A stretch of 64,000 nt of DNA from Ensifer sesbaniae (GTDB lineage Bacteria > Pseudomonadota > Alphaproteobacteria > Rhizobiales > Rhizobiaceae), in contig NZ_JABEKU010000002.1 in NCBI RefSeq assembly GCF_013283665.1, positions 1,610,863 through 1,674,862 on the forward strand, given 5' to 3'. The position numbers and the translations under genes are program-made. The number at the start of each line of letters is the position of its first letter. The stretch's first letter is position 1. The notes under the pieces were generated by a model that was not told the origin of the DNA, did no database searches, and saw only the letters and a list, made by a program, of their open reading frames with translations. This document shows positions 2,120-28,394 of the stretch, piece after piece.

Positions 2120-3427
2120 TCATTGCGCAACTATCGTATGTACACCTGCCGGAAGCCTGAAGCGTTCCTGCGTCGCAGCGAGAGACGGCCGGGCCTCGGA
2201 GATGATCCGCCACACTTCGACCGCCCCGCCGGGCGACGCGCTGTGGTTTCTATACCGATTGACGCCAACGAAGACGTGGCGACCGCCGCGATCGAAGGCC
2301 AGGCCTTGGGGAAGAACCCCTGCGACCGGCCATTCGCCATGAAGTGTCAGCCGGCCGGTTTGGCTTTCCAGCTCGTAGAGGCTGAGTGAAGCCTGCTCGG
2401 TCCAGTCGCGCGATCCGTCCGGCTTTCCGGTTCCACGCAGATTGCACGTGACCAGGAAGCGGCCGTCAGGGCTGAAGGCGATCGTCTCGGCTCCCCATCC
2501 TCCGACAATGATGTGGGGCACAGTATGCCGTGCTTTGTCGCCGGACGCGCCGACATCGGCGAGCCGGACGGTCGTCAGAATTCCCTCTCGCACGCCGTAG
2601 AACCCCTCGGTGTCGGTGCCCCACTGCAGGTCGGAGGTGACATAGTAGCGACCATCCGGCGAGAACCGGCCGACGAAGGGAAACTTGTTCGTTTGCACGC
2701 GGTTGCCCCAGGGACGGATATCGGACACCGCTCCGGCTTGATTGCGGACGACCTCGTAGAAGGCAACCTGGTTGCGATCGACGAGGTTGACCGCGATGTA
2801 CCGACCGCTCGGGTGCCACTGCACCCAGCTCGACTTCAGAGGAATGAAGCCAGTTGATGGTTCGAGGTCGAGGCCGAAGCTGGTGACCAGCCCGAAGTGG
2901 CCGTCATTGTTTGAAACGAAGGAAAGTTCCCGGTCAGCATCGACCGTGATCGCGACGATCAGGTCACCGGAAGGACTGACCTCGATAGCCTGTGGCTGTG
3001 TGCCGATTCGCACGCTGTCCACGACCGTCGGGCTATCGCCGTCAAGCCTCACCGAGCGGATCGCGTCGCCTTGCGGCAGTTCATCGAGGCGTGTCGCGCC
3101 CGCGGGCCGTTGGCCGAAGGTCTCCGCCACGAACGCAAAGCGGCCATCTGGCGAAAGATCGAGAGCGCCCGGTGGGCCGTAGGTAGAGTTCGATATTTCC
3201 AGCTGCGTCACCAGCGACGCCTCGCTCAATGGTGATCTGATGATGGACAGCGTGTCCCGGTGGCGAGAATCTGGAGGCCCAAGTTCACCGGTCTCATAGA
3301 CGGTCGGGACCATGTCGGTATCGGAGAGGACGACGATCGTCTCGGCTCCAGTCTCTGATGTCTCCGCAAGTGCAAGGACCGGCACCAGTACCATCGCCAG
3401 TACGGCGATGCGTGAACATGTTCGCAT
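2120..3427 (-). CDS. Secreted lactonase-type beta-propeller protein (copy 1)
   Basis: 435 residues from the ATG at 3425-3427, preceded by GGAG. A signal peptide (MRTCSRIAVLAMVLVPVLALAE) is followed by repeated blades with SPDGRFAFVAET, WHPSGRYIAVN, FSPDGRYYVTSD and FSPDGRFLVTCN, the pattern of YVTN/7-bladed lactonase-like propellers. The upstream part of the longer frame (to 3688) overlaps the divergent LysR gene and is not credible. A clear paralogue lies at 9147-10499; both keep WHPSGR, FVGRF-PDGRYY and VLP-G. It is predicted periplasmic. Substrate and enzymatic activity cannot be told from sequence; lactone hydrolysis is one possibility. Confidence 0.75.
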   Translation of the reverse strand: MRTCSRIAVLAMVLVPVLALAETSETGAETIVVLSDTDMVPTVYETGELGPPDSRHRDTLSIIRSPLSEASLVTQLEISNSTYGPPGALDLSPDGRFAFVAETFGQRPAGATRLDELPQGDAIRSVRLDGDSPTVVDSVRIGTQPQAIEVSPSGDLIVAITVDADRELSFVSNNDGHFGLVTSFGLDLEPSTGFIPLKSSWVQWHPSGRYIAVNLVDRNQVAFYEVVRNQAGAVSDIRPWGNRVQTNKFPFVGRFSPDGRYYVTSDLQWGTDTEGFYGVREGILTTVRLADVGASGDKARHTVPHIIVGGWGAETIAFSPDGRFLVTCNLRGTGKPDGSRDWTEQASLSLYELESQTGRLTLHGEWPVAGVLPQGLAFDRGGRHVFVGVNRYRNHSASPGGAVEVWRIISEARPSLAATQERFRLPAGVHTIVAQ

Positions 3428-3482
3428 GAAATACAGCTCCGTTTGTTCTTGACCTCCCTTCCTCTCATTGCCGCCGCTAATC

Positions 3483-3500
3483 GTCCAATCGATATTGGAC
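3483..3500. promoter_or_regulatory. Inverted repeat between divergent LysR and propeller genes
   Basis: GTCCAAT (3483-3489) and ATTGGAC (3494-3500) are perfect 7-bp arms around CGAT. A direct repeat GATATT-N9-GATATT (3491-3511) overlaps it. The site sits in the 123-bp gap between the propeller gene (start 3427) and the LysR gene (start 3551), the classic place for a LysR operator. Confidence 0.5.
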
Positions 3501-21712: not shown

Positions 21713-21995
21713 CGCTCGCTGCATCAGCGTGAACCGAAACTCATCCGCAAACCATCGCACTGTGAACCGCTGCCCTCGTTGTGTGCGTTGGCAGTTGGAT
21801 AATGTATGACTGGAATGTTTTCGGTTGCAGTCGGCGGCGGTGAGCAAAAGCTCGCGAGCTTCTCGGTTCACCGATCACGTCCCGGCGCGGGTGCAAGGCC
21901 TGCGCGGTGACGCTCGACGACTTCATCGATTGCACGCTTGCTTGGCACGACCGTGTGTCCTTCCACGGCGGACAAGAGGTCCCAAAGGTGTCTGG

Positions 21996-22361
21996 TCATC
22001 CAGTGTTGCAGGGTACCGCCCGCCAATTTGAGTGACGAGCGTTGATCAAAGTCGAATTGCCGTCCACCACGAGCCAGAGTCCGTTCCCCAAGGCACGAAC
22101 GGTGAGCGGTTTCCGTTTCCCCTGATTGCATTTCGACGCTGTCTGCATATGCCGGTTTGCATTGACGATGCCTCTTTCACGCATACGCGCGTTAACGAGC
22201 TGGTCGAGCGGAATGAACAGGTGAGCTTCGCCGAGATCAAAGTAAAGCGAGGGGTCATCCGGAAGCGTAGCGAGCGCCGCGGCGATTTCCTGGCTCAGCT
22301 CAGTCTCCCAGACCGCGCCGTCCGACCGAAGAGTTAGATATCTTGCTGACATTTTCGTCAT
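21996..22361 (-). CDS. Conserved hypothetical protein with ParB-nuclease-like core
   Basis: About 121 residues from the ATG at 22359-22361 (another ATG is three codons in). The C-terminal half, KRKPLTVRALGNGLWLVVDGN followed by STLINARHSNWRAVPC, has the layout of the ParB N-terminal fold (target V-R, G-W-V-V-D-G-N, A-R-x-x-G/N-W). FIPLDQLVNARMRERGI looks like the preceding strand. There is no HTH or dimer domain, so it is not a segregation ParB. It is an orphan among sparse DNA, and its C-terminus may be shortened. Confidence 0.5.
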   Translation of the reverse strand: MTKMSARYLTLRSDGAVWETELSQEIAAALATLPDDPSLYFDLGEAHLFIPLDQLVNARMRERGIVNANRHMQTASKCNQGKRKPLTVRALGNGLWLVVDGNSTLINARHSNWRAVPCNTG

Positions 22362-22700
22362 CTTTCGCGCATTGGTCTTAAGGGAATTAGCGTCTCCTGA
22401 AATAAGTCCATACTTTCTGGCTCTTTTGACTGGTTCGGACCATCGCGCCATCAACGGACATATGATGGCCGACGGCGCAGATGTCGCAAGCTAGCAGCGA
22501 TCATCACAGCTACGAAATCCGAAATTTCGCTCGGCCTCGTCAGGCGCTTATTGCTTTTTGGCATCCCTGCCTTCCTCGCATAGCGAGGATCCAGAAGTTG
22601 TAAGGCACCGCGCCAGAAAGCCGCTGATGTCGGATTCGCTACGTTAGATTTCGGGGTATAGGCCCAGATTGGTGATCCGAGCGAGTTTTGCGCTCCGTAG

Positions 22701-22967
22701 TTATTGGGTGGAACGTGGGCAGCCGACGCGCACCAGAACGCGGTCAGATCCTGCGATGTCCTCCGCGACGCGCCGGATGAACTCGTCGCCGCCGGGGGCG
22801 TTGACCATTCCTTCAATAACGACGCCGTTTCCAAGCACCCTGAAGCAAAGGTTAGTCGTGTCAAAGGGTGCTTCCGCCGCCAACGCGTCCTTAATGGAGG
22901 CGATCAGACCCGAGGCATCCGAACCCTCGCCACCTCGGCAGTCAAGTTCTGGTGGGATCAGAATCAT
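22701..22967 (-). CDS. BON-domain-like small protein, candidate EcfG target
   Basis: 88 residues with a good ribosome binding site (AGGAG, nine bases upstream of the ATG). The second half, LCFRVLGNGVVIEGMVNAPG followed by a helix and DRVLVRVGCP, follows the BON pattern (V-x-x-x-G-x-V-x-L-x-G-x-V ... I-x-x-x-x-x-V). BON domains occur in OsmY-like proteins that protect cells during osmotic and general stress. No signal peptide is visible. A GGAAC-N16-AGTT site lies just upstream at 22991-23015, so the gene may belong to the general stress regulon. Confidence 0.55.
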   Translation of the reverse strand: MILIPPELDCRGGEGSDASGLIASIKDALAAEAPFDTTNLCFRVLGNGVVIEGMVNAPGGDEFIRRVAEDIAGSDRVLVRVGCPRSTQ

Positions 22968-22990
22968 CGCTGGAACTCCTATGGAATTCC

Positions 22991-23015
22991 AACTCGTTTT
23001 ATGCGGAGTTGTTCC
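22991..23015 (-). promoter_or_regulatory. EcfG/RpoE2-like promoter candidate for the BON-like gene
   Basis: Minus strand GGAAC (23011-23015), 16 bp, then AGTT (22991-22994). The EcfG consensus in rhizobia is GGAAC-N16/17-CGTT; the -10 part deviates at the first base and C is absent. The predicted start of transcription would lie about 20 bp before the ATG at 22967. Confidence 0.4.
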
Positions 23016-23040
23016 TATTGGAGGATGCTCGTTCGCCTAA

Positions 23041-23148
23041 GAAAACGGCCCCGAAAGGCGACAACGGGGCCAAGTGCGTTATCCGGGCTCCAGTGGGGGA
23101 AGGGGAGATCAGAGCCCGCCGATGACCCCGCATCATGATCACCGACAT
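23041..23148 (-). ncRNA. Candidate general-stress small RNA with C-rich loop
   Basis: An EcfG-like promoter (23155-23179) points into about 105 nt that ends in a terminator. In order along the RNA, a 7-bp stem CGGGCTC/GAGCCCG (23112-23118 with 23084-23090) encloses a 21-nt loop. The loop is rich in C/U (CUCCCCUUCCCCC), complementary to Shine-Dalgarno sequences. Then GGCCCCG and CGGGGCC (23065-23071 with 23047-23053) form a second hairpin followed by GTTTTC. This is the layout of trans-acting stress sRNAs such as Caulobacter GsrN, which is sigmaT-dependent and has a C-rich loop. Transcription itself is inferred. Confidence 0.5.
23047..23071 (-). terminator. Rho-independent-like terminator of the candidate sRNA
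   Basis: Minus strand GGCCCCG, 11-nt loop, CGGGGCC, then GTTTTC. The seven GC-rich base pairs and the U-tract fit an intrinsic terminator. No protein gene ends at this place. Confidence 0.6.
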
Positions 23149-23154
23149 CTAATA

Positions 23155-23179
23155 AACCGGCATTGGCACGCAATGTTCC
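23155..23179 (-). promoter_or_regulatory. EcfG/RpoE2-like promoter for the candidate sRNA
   Basis: Minus strand GGAAC (23175-23179), 16 bp, GGTT (23155-23158). It shares GGAACATTGC and the TTTATT after the -10 box with the prkA promoter at 53444-53468. Consensus is GGAAC-N16/17-CGTT, so one -10 base differs. Confidence 0.55.
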
Positions 23180-23750
23180 TTCAGAACTCCCGACGTCGAT
23201 ATCAGGGCGTTTCCCTGGGAGGTTGGCCGCCACGTCCACCAGCATGAGCGGTTCGGCCCTGTAGGTGGCGTAGCAGGCCACCTGAGAGACGTCGAGTTCA
23301 AGCCCGGTCTTCGCCGCGAGTTTTACGGCAGGTGTTCGTCCGCAGCCTTGTAATGGAAGCGATGGGCTCGTGGCGATCGCGCCGAATGGCGTGCGACTGC
23401 CGCGGCTCTCGATCATCCTGCCGCTCAGCGCGATCGAGGGATCGCGGTACGGGTAGCCGTCTCGCGGTACCAAGCTGCAGCGCTAACGGGATGATTGGAA
23501 CCCGGGCGAGGCTTTGTCAGATTCTTGAGGAGGGCTATTTCGTAAATGTCGTTCTCATCGGGTTTCCTGCACCGCCAGAACCGCCGATTACTCTATGGCT
23601 CGATACTCAGCGAGACATGCCCGCAGACATCTCCGACTGCCGCACTGTCACCTGATGCTTGTCACGGTTGAAGCAAGGCAAACCGCATCGTCGGTAAATC
23701 GCGGTTCACGTGTTTCCTCAGGGTTGGCATTCTGTCGTAGCCAATAGTAT

Positions 23751-24071
23751 TCACGCGTTCCTGATCTGGTCGACGGCGGTCGCCAATAGTTCGTCCATAA
23801 CGCCGCGAATTTGATGATCGGACTTGTCGACGCCAGCTGCGTCGAAATCGGCGCGTACTTTTCGGAATACGTCGTTGTCTCCGGCTTCCTCGAAGTCCGC
23901 GCGCACCACGTCATTCGCATAGGCGTCGGCGTCCGCGCCGGCTTTGCCGAGCTGTTCAGCGGCCCATAGACCGAAGAGTTTGTTGCGGCGTGCCATGGCC
24001 CGGAACTTCGATTCCTCGTCCATCGCGAACTTCTTTTCGAAGCCTTCTTGGCGGTCTCTCATGCTATTCAT
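23751..24071 (-). CDS. DUF1476 protein, F1Fo-ATPase zeta (inhibitor) subunit paralogue
   Basis: 106 residues. RDRQEGFEKKFAMDEESKFRAMARRNKLFG followed by LWAAEQLGKAGADADAYANDVV matches the DUF1476 family throughout, as do ADFEEAGDNDVFRKVRADFD and the SDH-IR-x-MDELL end. In Paracoccus and relatives this protein is the zeta subunit, whose N-terminal segment inhibits ATP hydrolysis by F1. Rhizobia usually have one chromosomal copy away from the atp operon. Here it sits in a gene-poor stretch without atp genes, so it may be an extra, stress-related copy. The start is the ATG at 24071; one three codons later is also possible. Confidence 0.88.
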   Translation of the reverse strand: MNSMRDRQEGFEKKFAMDEESKFRAMARRNKLFGLWAAEQLGKAGADADAYANDVVRADFEEAGDNDVFRKVRADFDAAGVDKSDHQIRGVMDELLATAVDQIRNA

Positions 24072-24445
24072 GGTTTGGCCCCCGGTTCAGGTGCGAGTTC
24101 TGACTTTCGTCCGAAATTCGCCAGATAACCAACTAGCAAATACTTTGTAATTAGCCAGACGAAACTCAGAGTGGCGCGAACTGGCACGATTGGCAACACC
24201 GGACCCCTTGTTTGCGAGATCGATCAGCTCCCAGTCCCATTTTGGGGTGCCTATTCGACATCAATGTTCGACAAGTGCTAGGGCGATCATATCAAAATGC
24301 TCTGCGAGATCGGATCGCCGGGCTGCACCTGCCTGCAGCGAATATCATGCAGTCGATTCCCGCCCGTTTTAGCATCGGCTCCCTCTGCGCTATCGTCGAA
24401 ACGGGAGGCTCAACCAAAACGCCTTGGCTATCTGGGGCAGTGAGG
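24072..24445. other. Intergenic stretch, no gene seen
   Basis: 374 bp between the zeta-subunit gene and the end of the BacA-like ABC gene. Short plus-strand frames (24190-24586) overlap the ABC gene or lack motifs and ribosome binding sites. No clear repeats or promoters of known type were seen. Confidence 0.45.
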
Positions 24446-26491
24446 TTAGTCGACTGGGGGCGTTTCGGAAGATTGTTTCGCCCGCTCGGCACTAACAAGC
24501 GGGCCCGTAAACGTTGCGACGGGGGTTTTCGTGACCAATCGATCTTTGATCGACAAGACACTGTCGAAGAATTCGCCGCCGGTTGACGATTTAGGCGGCG
24601 CGACTGTGTGCATCACGCTGATTACGGTCGCGTCGGCACATTGGGTGCGGATTGCGCCGTAAAGGGCTATTCGAGATGGAATGTCCAGGGAACTGGTTGG
24701 CTCGTCTAAAAGTAATATTTGGGGACGCAGCAAAAGAATTCTCGCCAAGATGAGCTTCTGCTTTTGTCCGCCGGAAAGAGCTTGATCCCACGTTTGATCG
24801 TCGCGGCCCTCCTTTGCAAGATCACAGATGAGATCATCAAGCCCGGCCCTAGACAGCGCCGTTGCAACTTCGGCGTCGGAGTAAGATTCTGGAGGATCCG
24901 GGAGGCAGATCAATTCCTTCAGCGGCGTTGGTTGGAGTTTGACCTCCTGTGCAGCATAGAGAAGCCGCACATTCCGAGGCAGACCAATTGTCCCACTTCC
25001 ATGCGGCCAAAGTCCGTTGATTGCTTTCAGTAGCGAAGACTTGCCGCATCCGGACTCTCCTACAAGCAAGGTCCATTCACCTGGTCCGATACGAAGACGT
25101 CCCGTTGAAAGAAAGGGCTCGTCGTCACCCGGATGCATCAGTTCGATATTGTTCAGGACCACGCCCAAGCGCCGATCGTGTCGCACGTACCGCAACTCGG
25201 AGCGCCCGGTGCGTGCGTGGAATGCACGAGGATCCTGCGCGTCCTCGATCGCATGCGCGAGTTCAGTTATACGCGCAGCGTTTGCTCGCAGCCTTGCTAT
25301 GTCGGGCATGACGTGAATGAACCACGAACAGTCTCTGATGACCGCGTTGGCGAGCTCCGCTCCGGTAATGTACGACTGCAGAGTGATTTTGCTTTGCGCG
25401 TAGGGCAAGAGACCAGGTGCGTAGGCGACGATGCGTGAAGCGAAGAAATCGTAAACCAGTTCGAAACCCATATAGGCAGAGCTAAGAATATTCAGGCTCG
25501 CCCATGTCCGATCGATGTTGCGATATCGCCGTCTGTGGACCCGGTTTTGGGATTCCTCGCCATCAGCGGCTGCGATATGGAAGCCGCGGTTGATGAAGGT
25601 AGCGAGCGCATGACGGTAGCTACCCTCGGCCCACTGCATTCTCACGTCCAATTTCTGTTGGATCGCGCCAAGCTTTATGGCCAGGAAAGTGTTAAGAGGC
25701 ACGTACGCAGAGACTACGGCGATTGTTAAGAGTGCACTGGCGTAACTGCCCAGAAACTCTAGTCCACTGATTTCGGTGGAAGTGGCAATAATTTTGCCGC
25801 CCACGAAATAGAGCGACAGAACGACCCCGGCCACCCCCATGGCAAGTCCGATGGCGCCGCCGGTCATACCCTTGATTGACTCTTGAATACGCTGATCGAC
25901 ATTGTCCGGCACCGATGCGGCCGATGGTATAGCTTCTGTGGCTCCCTGTTGGAGATGAAAGTGCGTGTGATTGCGGTCGAGCAACGCTTCGTTGAAACGC
26001 TCATCGAGCCAGGCACGCCATCTTCGGTGAAGGCTGGTTGAGGAGAAATGGCGGACTGCGATGAAGCCAACTTCCTTCAGGACGACAATCCCGACCAGCG
26101 CACCGGCGCTCGCCAGGAGCGATTGAAGCGTGGACGGGTTTTTGGGATGGTGAAGGAAAGAAATCGCGCTAAATAACTCTCCCGATGCCTCGGCGAACCA
26201 GACACTGGCCATCGCTGACAACGCCGTCAGCAGCACGATCATGGCCGCCAGTCCCCAAGCTTCTTGCCACTTCTCGGAAAACCAATAAGCAGCCATCAAC
26301 CCCCAAAAACTGCGCATTGACGATACTGGCGTCAACTGCGGCCGTTTATCCGGCCTGCGCGTCCGCAAGTGCAAATTCCCCCTCAGCGCATTCTCGATTT
26401 CTTCTCCGATTCCACACTCGCACTTTTGAGCCCCAGTTCCTACCCCGAAATTCCGGAAAGCGGCATTTGTCGCCTTCGTATGGGTCACCAC
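24446..26491 (-). CDS. BacA/SbmA-related ABC transporter (ABC_membrane_2 fused to ATPase; BclA/ExsE-like)
   Basis: Up to 681 residues. The membrane domain (about residues 60-400) has long helices and stretches such as RRWRAWLDERFNEALLDRNH, PDNVDQRIQESI, GYASALLTIAVVSAYVP-type helices and FYRHALATFINRG-like text, typical of the SbmA_BacA/YddA (ABC_membrane_2) family. The ATPase domain has Walker A GESGCGKSS, signature LSGGQKQK and Walker B ILLLDEPTSSLD. Relatives include S. meliloti ExsE and Bradyrhizobium BclA, which import antimicrobial or NCR peptides or export lipids. The start is uncertain: the GTG at 26491 gives a 58-residue cytoplasmic extension; ATG 26317 (MRSFWGLMAAYWFSEKWQEA) is a good alternative. 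Confidence 0.8.
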   Translation of the reverse strand: MVTHTKATNAAFRNFGVGTGAQKCECGIGEEIENALRGNLHLRTRRPDKRPQLTPVSSMRSFWGLMAAYWFSEKWQEAWGLAAMIVLLTALSAMASVWFAEASGELFSAISFLHHPKNPSTLQSLLASAGALVGIVVLKEVGFIAVRHFSSTSLHRRWRAWLDERFNEALLDRNHTHFHLQQGATEAIPSAASVPDNVDQRIQESIKGMTGGAIGLAMGVAGVVLSLYFVGGKIIATSTEISGLEFLGSYASALLTIAVVSAYVPLNTFLAIKLGAIQQKLDVRMQWAEGSYRHALATFINRGFHIAAADGEESQNRVHRRRYRNIDRTWASLNILSSAYMGFELVYDFFASRIVAYAPGLLPYAQSKITLQSYITGAELANAVIRDCSWFIHVMPDIARLRANAARITELAHAIEDAQDPRAFHARTGRSELRYVRHDRRLGVVLNNIELMHPGDDEPFLSTGRLRIGPGEWTLLVGESGCGKSSLLKAINGLWPHGSGTIGLPRNVRLLYAAQEVKLQPTPLKELICLPDPPESYSDAEVATALSRAGLDDLICDLAKEGRDDQTWDQALSGGQKQKLILARILLLRPQILLLDEPTSSLDIPSRIALYGAIRTQCADATVISVMHTVAPPKSSTGGEFFDSVLSIKDRLVTKTPVATFTGPLVSAERAKQSSETPPVD

Positions 26492-28054: not shown

Positions 28055-28394
28055 TATTGCGTTAATTGCGAACCGCTGCGCACTCTTGCGCGACACGCTT
28101 GGCGCAACAACGCGCATCCCGAGCGGCGGAAACCCGCTTCTCGCGGCCCAACGGCGGCCGGCGCTTTGAAGTGGATCCACGCGCGATGGTCGAGGATTCA
28201 GAGTAAGGTCATTGCTTGTAAGAAGTATCTGTCTCAAATTGCTGGTACACGAAAGGCATATGTCACATCTGTTCCGAGAATTCCTGCAATTATTAACGAA
28301 AGTTATCAAGCGTGATGCGAAAGCAGGAACGGCAAATATGGAACAATTTATTAGCCGCTTCGTTGAGTTGGTGATCGAACGAAAGGATGAGATC
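28055..28394. other. Leader region of the glycine-zipper gene
   Basis: 340 bp with no supported gene. It carries an EcfG-type promoter (28340-28364) close to the next gene. Upstream, an AT-richer stretch (28200-28300) shows no recognised element. Confidence 0.5.
28340..28364 (+). promoter_or_regulatory. EcfG/RpoE2-type promoter upstream of the glycine-zipper gene
   Basis: GGAAC (28340-28344), 16 bp, CGTT (28361-28364): a full match to the rhizobial general-stress consensus GGAAC-N16/17-CGTT. The predicted transcription start is about 25 bp before the ATG at 28395. Confidence 0.7.

Follow-up and report, generated by a model that had tools for sequence, protein, structure and literature searches.

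Positions 23179-23041 on the minus strand of the 64,000-nt Ensifer sesbaniae stretch analysed here (the window) very probably hold the gene of a small non-coding RNA that the general stress response turns on. The best explanation of the whole, to which we give a probability of about 0.72, is an autonomous, EcfG-dependent, trans-acting sRNA of ~105 nt whose loop would pair with G-rich ribosome-binding regions and which would belong to a family of the genus. Promoter motif, family, spacing, covariation and neighbourhood were established by computation. As a single sequence the unit is unremarkable, and the case beyond chance comes from comparison between genomes.

Layout of the predicted sRNA gene

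The observation made earlier at this place was confirmed. The unit and the ORF that follows it have these features, in window coordinates:

23155..23179, minus: EcfG-type promoter GGAAC-N16-GGTT (GGAAC at 23179-23175, 16-nt spacer, GGTT at 23158-23155), from the sequence
23146, minus: predicted transcription start, about ±3 nt, from SmelB126 spacing
23118..23146, minus: 5′ hairpin GUCGGUGAUC/GGUCAUCGGC, 10 bp, beginning at the predicted 5′ end, from the fold
23084..23118, minus: C-loop hairpin, stem CGGGCTC/GAGCCCG at 23118-23112 / 23090-23084, from sequence and fold
23111-23091, minus: 21-nt loop of the C-loop hairpin, with CUCCCCUUCCCCC at 23107-23095
23041..23071, minus: intrinsic terminator, stem GGCCCCG/CGGGGCC at 23071-23047 with an 11-nt loop, then GUUUUC, from sequence and fold
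22991..23015, minus: another EcfG-like promoter, GGAAC-N16-AGTT, past the terminator and ahead of the 88-aa ORF, from a motif scan
22701..22967, minus: 88-aa small ORF downstream of the unit, from the ORF list

The original prediction had described the promoter, the stem with its 21-nt loop and a terminator with a U-tract, with two hairpins in all and no protein gene. Promoter and stem are present on the minus strand, and the loop contains the C-rich segment. The fold gives three hairpins rather than two, the 5′ hairpin having been overlooked; in it base 23118 pairs within the 5′ hairpin, not within the C-loop stem. The 5′ hairpin, whose counterpart could be aligned in five related units, has the loop AUGAUGCGG, which is not C-rich, and the C-rich loop is that of the middle hairpin alone. 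The terminator stem and GUUUUC were found, but the U-tract is short. Open frames cross the unit on both strands (minus 23473-23015 and plus 22704-23138 in the ORF list), although the minus-strand frame has no Pfam match.

Start coordinates published in PMC7143759 for SmelB126, an RpoE2-linked sRNA, fall on the 9th base after its CGTT when placed on the pSymB sequence. By this spacing transcription would begin near 23146, so that the RNA would be ~105 nt long and would open with the 5′ hairpin. Fold and family loops together predict an RNA of ~100 nt with an intrinsic terminator and an exposed C-rich loop.

Folded alone, the unit is not unusually stable, with a z score of +0.31 for the whole (no more stable than shuffles) and +0.88 against shuffles for the part before the terminator. 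Rfam gave no match in the window at gathering score, and a permissive search of 22850-23350 returned only two weak matches, far under their gathering scores. A terminator scan of the region did not list the unit's terminator, probably because its loop is longer than the 3-8 nt that the scan allows. The sole sigma-70-like site in a scan of 22000-24500 lies at 23520-23491, not at the unit. The motif GGAAC-N16/17-NGTT occurs at five sites in the whole window against three for the reversed motif, so a single motif means little. Elsewhere in the window, at 28340-28364 (plus strand), GGAAC-N16-CGTT stands ~30 nt before the ATG of a frame whose start resembles that of a secreted protein; this is probably a further gene of the general stress response.

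Genomic setting

The unit sits on a 2.35-Mb contig (C2) of a 6.9-Mb genome. Two NepR genes, at C1:3155693 and C1:959211, indicate that the general stress response is present in this genome. Other promoter-bearing units lie at C1:715747 and C1:2386702, which makes the window unit one of at least three promoter-bearing members of its family in its own genome. A partial copy without promoter lies at C2:1329645, near a frame that by eye is transposase-like. It is a chimera of the window locus without the sRNA promoter (~3087-3490 of locus L015, G000:C2:1326500-1333000), joining segments that match window 21847-21900, 23131-22834 and 22743-22686.

Matches of the locus in the plasmid collection came from Ensifer and Sinorhizobium, the closest being Sinorhizobium chiapasense plasmid pA, which carries the counterpart unit. 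Identity between the two is 97.5% in the 5′ hairpin, 94.1% in the C-loop hairpin (no substitution, and a 2-nt loop deletion in the S. chiapasense copy), 92.0% in the promoter (two substitutions, both within the spacer), 90.6% in the terminator, 91.4% in the upstream flank, 89.1% in the ORF start and 75.3% in the spacer to the ORF. On this alignment the hairpins are only modestly more conserved than the flank, and promoter and terminator are no better conserved than the upstream flank. The loop deletion puts any frame that crosses the unit out of register. Upstream of the unit, 23332-23180 (minus strand) has a match in S. chiapasense and another, at 72%, to a protein of Ensifer canadensis pT173c that is annotated as hypothetical; it is possibly a decayed small gene.

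A multi-copy family in the genus

BLAST similarity to the window's terminator led to the first paralogue matches and then to genus loci of like layout. The full pattern, which requires promoter, spacing, the two terminator arms and a T-run, occurs eight times in 16 genus genomes, window included, and its reversal not once in the same genomes. It was used instead of the looser GGAAC-N16/17-SGTT-N65-95-GGCCCC, which proved unspecific at 30 matches versus 30 in the reversed control. A scan of the genome contigs for the exact pattern of the window's loop hairpin gave no match.

We then built a covariance model (R1) from 10 sequences and 13 pairs that covers the C-loop hairpin and terminator only and leaves the promoter out; L078a and L097 were removed from its training alignment for misaligned stems. 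With the best 150 candidates per genome scored in the 16 genus genomes, R1 gave at least 86 matches at E ≤ 1, of which 56 have E ≤ 0.1 (nine of them training members). Upstream regions were read for all 56 and for eight weaker matches, leaving out 22 of the 86, all with E > 0.1. Training members were selected in the knowledge of their promoters, and we do not count them as evidence. GGAAC-N16/17-NGTT stands within 130 nt upstream of 30 of the 47 untrained matches at E ≤ 0.1 and, in its strict form, upstream of none of the eight weaker ones. In all, 39 of the 64 matches read have the motif ahead of them (30/55 untrained, 9/9 training), and the reversed motif is found in none of the 64 upstream regions. 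Motif density is raised in the stretches around the matches (104 in 310,768 bases); even so, arithmetic gives fewer than two chance matches.

The 17 untrained matches at E ≤ 0.1 that lack the strict promoter include two with GATT, one with a site degenerate by eye and one that is the promoterless second copy in the own genome. By eye, GATT rather than NGTT forms the –10 in G010:C3:347923, G008:C2:1115523 and L026, the first two of which have a GGGCTGGCG..TCCTGCCGGC hairpin in common. Counting training members, 19 of the 39 promoter-bearing units have CGTT as their –10, 16 have GGTT, two AGTT and two TGTT. For Sphingopyxis, PMC7083833 likewise describes EcfG promoters with a conserved GGAAC and a flexible –10. 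The distance from promoter to hairpin falls into two classes, 1-8 nt in 10 untrained units (1 and 2 nt in two of these) and 32-43 nt in 20, with none of the 30 untrained promoter-bearing units in between.

What had been predicted as a single gene is thus a multi-copy family: at least 39 promoter-bearing units occur in nine of the 16 genus genomes, at 12, 10, 4, 3 (own), 3, 3, 2, 1 and 1 per genome, and at least 13 of the 39 stand within 300 bases of another. All 13 match places compared with annotation, 12 on E. adhaerens W2-B9 p1 and one on CTYH.Ch1 pCTYH.Ch1_2, lie between annotated coding genes, in a gene table that is incomplete and lists no RNA genes.

A refined model (R2) was trained on 55 matches, at least four places being present twice among them; outside the genus the best 11 candidates per genome were scored, with stricter filters that may lose weak members. 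Among 394 Rhizobiaceae genomes six had matches, all in the Ensifer genus, to which eight of the 394 belong; the 386 outside it gave none among the best 11 candidates per genome. In 397 genomes of the order, R2 found five isolated weak matches besides the own genome, none with the EcfG motif, and we treat these as chance rather than as relatives. No Rfam family matched in 20 family loci. The covariance search that had been proposed for Rhizobiales was thus positive within the genus alone; a distribution across the order was not borne out, and on these searches the multi-copy family appears so far in the Ensifer genus alone.

A pattern with CCCCTTCCCC after the promoter was set aside at five matches versus two in the control across the 394 family genomes, with a gap setting that excluded the window itself. 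One of the five (L089, in G163, another genus of Rhizobiaceae) has an EcfG-like promoter, then two hairpins whose loops contain ACACCCUCA and CCCCUUCCCC, then a terminator; it is possibly an analogous RNA outside the genus.

Structure in the family

Folding the 5′ part of each of the 30 untrained units with a promoter gave a mean z score of –2.26, with 17 of them at or below –2. In 60 model-aligned matches, 10 of them training members, each of the seven C-loop stem pairs has somewhere changed at both of its positions, and 84.4% of stem cells are paired. The covariation score is 0.412, compared with 0.172 for shuffled alignments and at most 0.142 with slid partners, on an alignment that was fitted to the structure and includes the 10 training members. 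Because of this fitting, the 5′ hairpin region outside the model matters as an independent check: in the 20 untrained long-gap units it has a mean z score of –2.91, and 12 of the 20 carry CCC in a loop there versus 4.8 expected. CCCC falls in a hairpin loop of 13 of the 30 untrained units versus 3.5 expected, under a model that itself favours C-rich loops. The family stems covary, and the unmodelled 5′ hairpin is itself structured.

Proposed mechanism and targets

In the mechanism that we propose, EcfG (RpoE2), the general-stress sigma factor, would start the RNA at GGAAC-N16-GGTT and the GC-rich intrinsic terminator would end it, so that the gene would span 23146-23041 (minus strand), ~105 nt. 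Each member would form one or two hairpins whose stems vary yet stay self-complementary, and many members would keep a C/U-rich loop open. The exposed C-rich loops of the family seem made for pairing with ribosome-binding sites. In the manner of GsrN or NfeR1, the loop (CUCCCCUUCCCCC in the window unit) would pair during stress with ribosome-binding regions rich in G on several mRNAs; the likeliest effect would be a block of translation, and activation through the leader, as by GsrN on katG, is possible. Transcription, EcfG dependence, pairing in trans and targets are inferred.

A search of the own genome for GGGAAGGGG-N2-14-ATG, that is, this segment and an ATG only, gave 12 sites versus three in the control. 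Eleven of them open frames of just 7-87 aa, and the sole long frame (L199) was rejected, its ATG lying inside a frame of 832 aa or more; with no evident gene start among the 12 sites, this search found no targets. Such a result would also suit an EcfG-dependent RNA that binds a protein or another sRNA through its C-rich loops, as a sponge or titrator, rather than mRNAs, and the multi-copy, multi-loop design with similar C-rich loops fits that role. We consider it unlikely, since we know of no partner for such a sponge and since the exposed C-rich or anti-Shine-Dalgarno loops of the characterised alphaproteobacterial sRNAs GsrN and NfeR1, as these are described, pair with mRNA.

Relation to the downstream ORF

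The 88-aa ORF has no Pfam match, and a 'BON-like' label given to it by eye was dropped for want of Pfam support. Of 12 matched plasmid records, 11 contain DNA similar to the whole ORF or a portion of it. By eye, an sRNA-like unit precedes the ORF homologue at six of seven loci in other strains (S. chiapasense and five E. adhaerens), with a degenerate promoter in L028-L030; R1 matches among these units are those of S. chiapasense, L026 and Casida A (E 0.0056). For E. adhaerens W2-B9 (L027) the unit was recognised by eye and is not an R1 match; by eye, too, the promoters of both unit and ORF there are canonical.

This recurrent position directly upstream of the ORF would be expected of a 5′ leader or attenuator, in which transcripts from 23179 would either end at the terminator or continue into the ORF. 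We hold this to be quite unlikely. The ORF has its own EcfG-like promoter past the terminator, for which GGAAC-N16-CGTT stands by eye at the corresponding place in W2-B9; on W2-B9 p1 only one of 12 match places (299585) lies in the gap before the ORF; the clustering of units within 300 bases of one another also speaks against a leader; and by eye nothing recognisable as a unit stands before the ORF homologue of CTYH.Ch1 (L031). Separate stress genes as neighbours fit better.

That a promoter motif matched by chance beside an ordinary mRNA terminator is strongly disfavoured: the motif count of the window and the near-zero z scores of the single sequence would allow it, but the complete pattern (8 versus 0 in its control) and the motif at 30 of 47 matches of a promoter-blind model speak against it. 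A short stress-induced protein read from the ATG at 23148, with incidental RNA structure, can practically be dismissed, for although the minus strand has a frame that stays open across the unit, the S. chiapasense deletion shifts that frame, the family stems covary and transcription is predicted to start downstream of the ATG.

Comparison with known sRNAs

EcfG-type sRNAs with C-rich loops are already known; the multi-copy Ensifer family was not found in print, no description of it having appeared in the literature searched, which was largely without subscription journals and without supplements. The text of PMC5869019 (eLife 2018) proposes a wide occurrence in Alphaproteobacteria of EcfG-regulated sRNAs that expose C-rich loops, and predicts such sRNAs in Rhizobiaceae too. 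It reports from compensatory mutations that the C-rich loop of GsrN pairs with and activates the katG leader, and that BLASTn matches of GsrN were limited to Caulobacteraceae; outside that family, proximity to ecfG/nepR/phyR was used for candidates, and gsrN of C. crescentus itself is distal.

Caulobacter crescentus GsrN had been named as the closest parallel to the window unit, and both the parallel and the EcfG-sRNA reading are supported by promoters at promoter-blind matches, covarying stems, intergenic location and the two NepR genes. As GsrN is described, the two share an EcfG-type promoter, a length of ~100 nt, an exposed C-rich loop and an intrinsic terminator. GsrN, in the literature covered the one EcfG-dependent sRNA whose mechanism has been worked out, is described as a single gene, in contrast to the multi-copy Ensifer family; the window unit is not beside a general-stress locus (NepR on C1, the unit on C2), its C-loop belongs to the second hairpin whereas that of the short-gap class belongs to the first, and the Ensifer unit has no Rfam match.

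Rfam 15 holds a model of alpha-r14, and the window and the 20 family loci differ from that family in giving no Rfam match. In the account of PMC7143759, alpha-r14/NfeR1 (Smr14C2 of S. meliloti) has several copies, three hairpins and hypervariable stems, and three anti-Shine-Dalgarno motifs of NfeR1 silence targets redundantly. The window unit has three hairpins too, with several copies and variable stems in its family. Such motifs are given there for all of its loops, whereas in the window unit only the middle loop is C-rich, and its promoter is given as sigma-70, in contrast to the EcfG motifs at the Ensifer units.

According to PMC3616915, RpoE2 motifs lie upstream of 23 S. meliloti sRNAs. 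SmelB126 and other RpoE2-linked sRNAs of that species, as covered in PMC3616915, PMC3927594 and PMC7143759, share an RpoE2-type promoter and a terminator with the window unit, and SmelB126 is described as multi-copy; on pSymB, however, it is without the C-loop and GGCCCC terminator layout, and its fold differs by eye. R1 did not match SmelB126 on S. meliloti pSymB and gave one marginal match elsewhere. That match (L175, 1402638-1402739, minus strand, E 0.57) carries GGAAC-N16-GGTT, a stretch of UUCCCUCUCC and, with GGCCCCGCC, a strong terminator, and may be a distant S. meliloti relative. AbcR1/AbcR2 (alpha-r15) also have anti-Shine-Dalgarno motifs in unpaired regions, but the table of PMC7143759 gives them RpoD promoters (AbcR2 also RpoH1/2), and the Ensifer unit has no Rfam match.

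Implications

Tentatively, at somewhat under even odds, a GsrN-like RNA may have multiplied in Ensifer into a set, peculiar to the genus, of redundant, rapidly diversifying ribosome-site blockers through which the general stress response would act and which would give each strain its own translational stress programme. Under this speculative reading the set would comprise two architectural classes, partly in tandem among stress genes, in which stems would drift and C-rich loops would be kept.

If a multi-copy, fast-evolving family does stand under the general-stress promoter, much of the post-transcriptional stress response of these soil bacteria would be uncatalogued, given that no Rfam family matched the window or the 20 family loci. 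With its loops fixed and its stems changing, the family would be a natural experiment, and the sibling sRNAs would be ready candidates for tests of redundancy.
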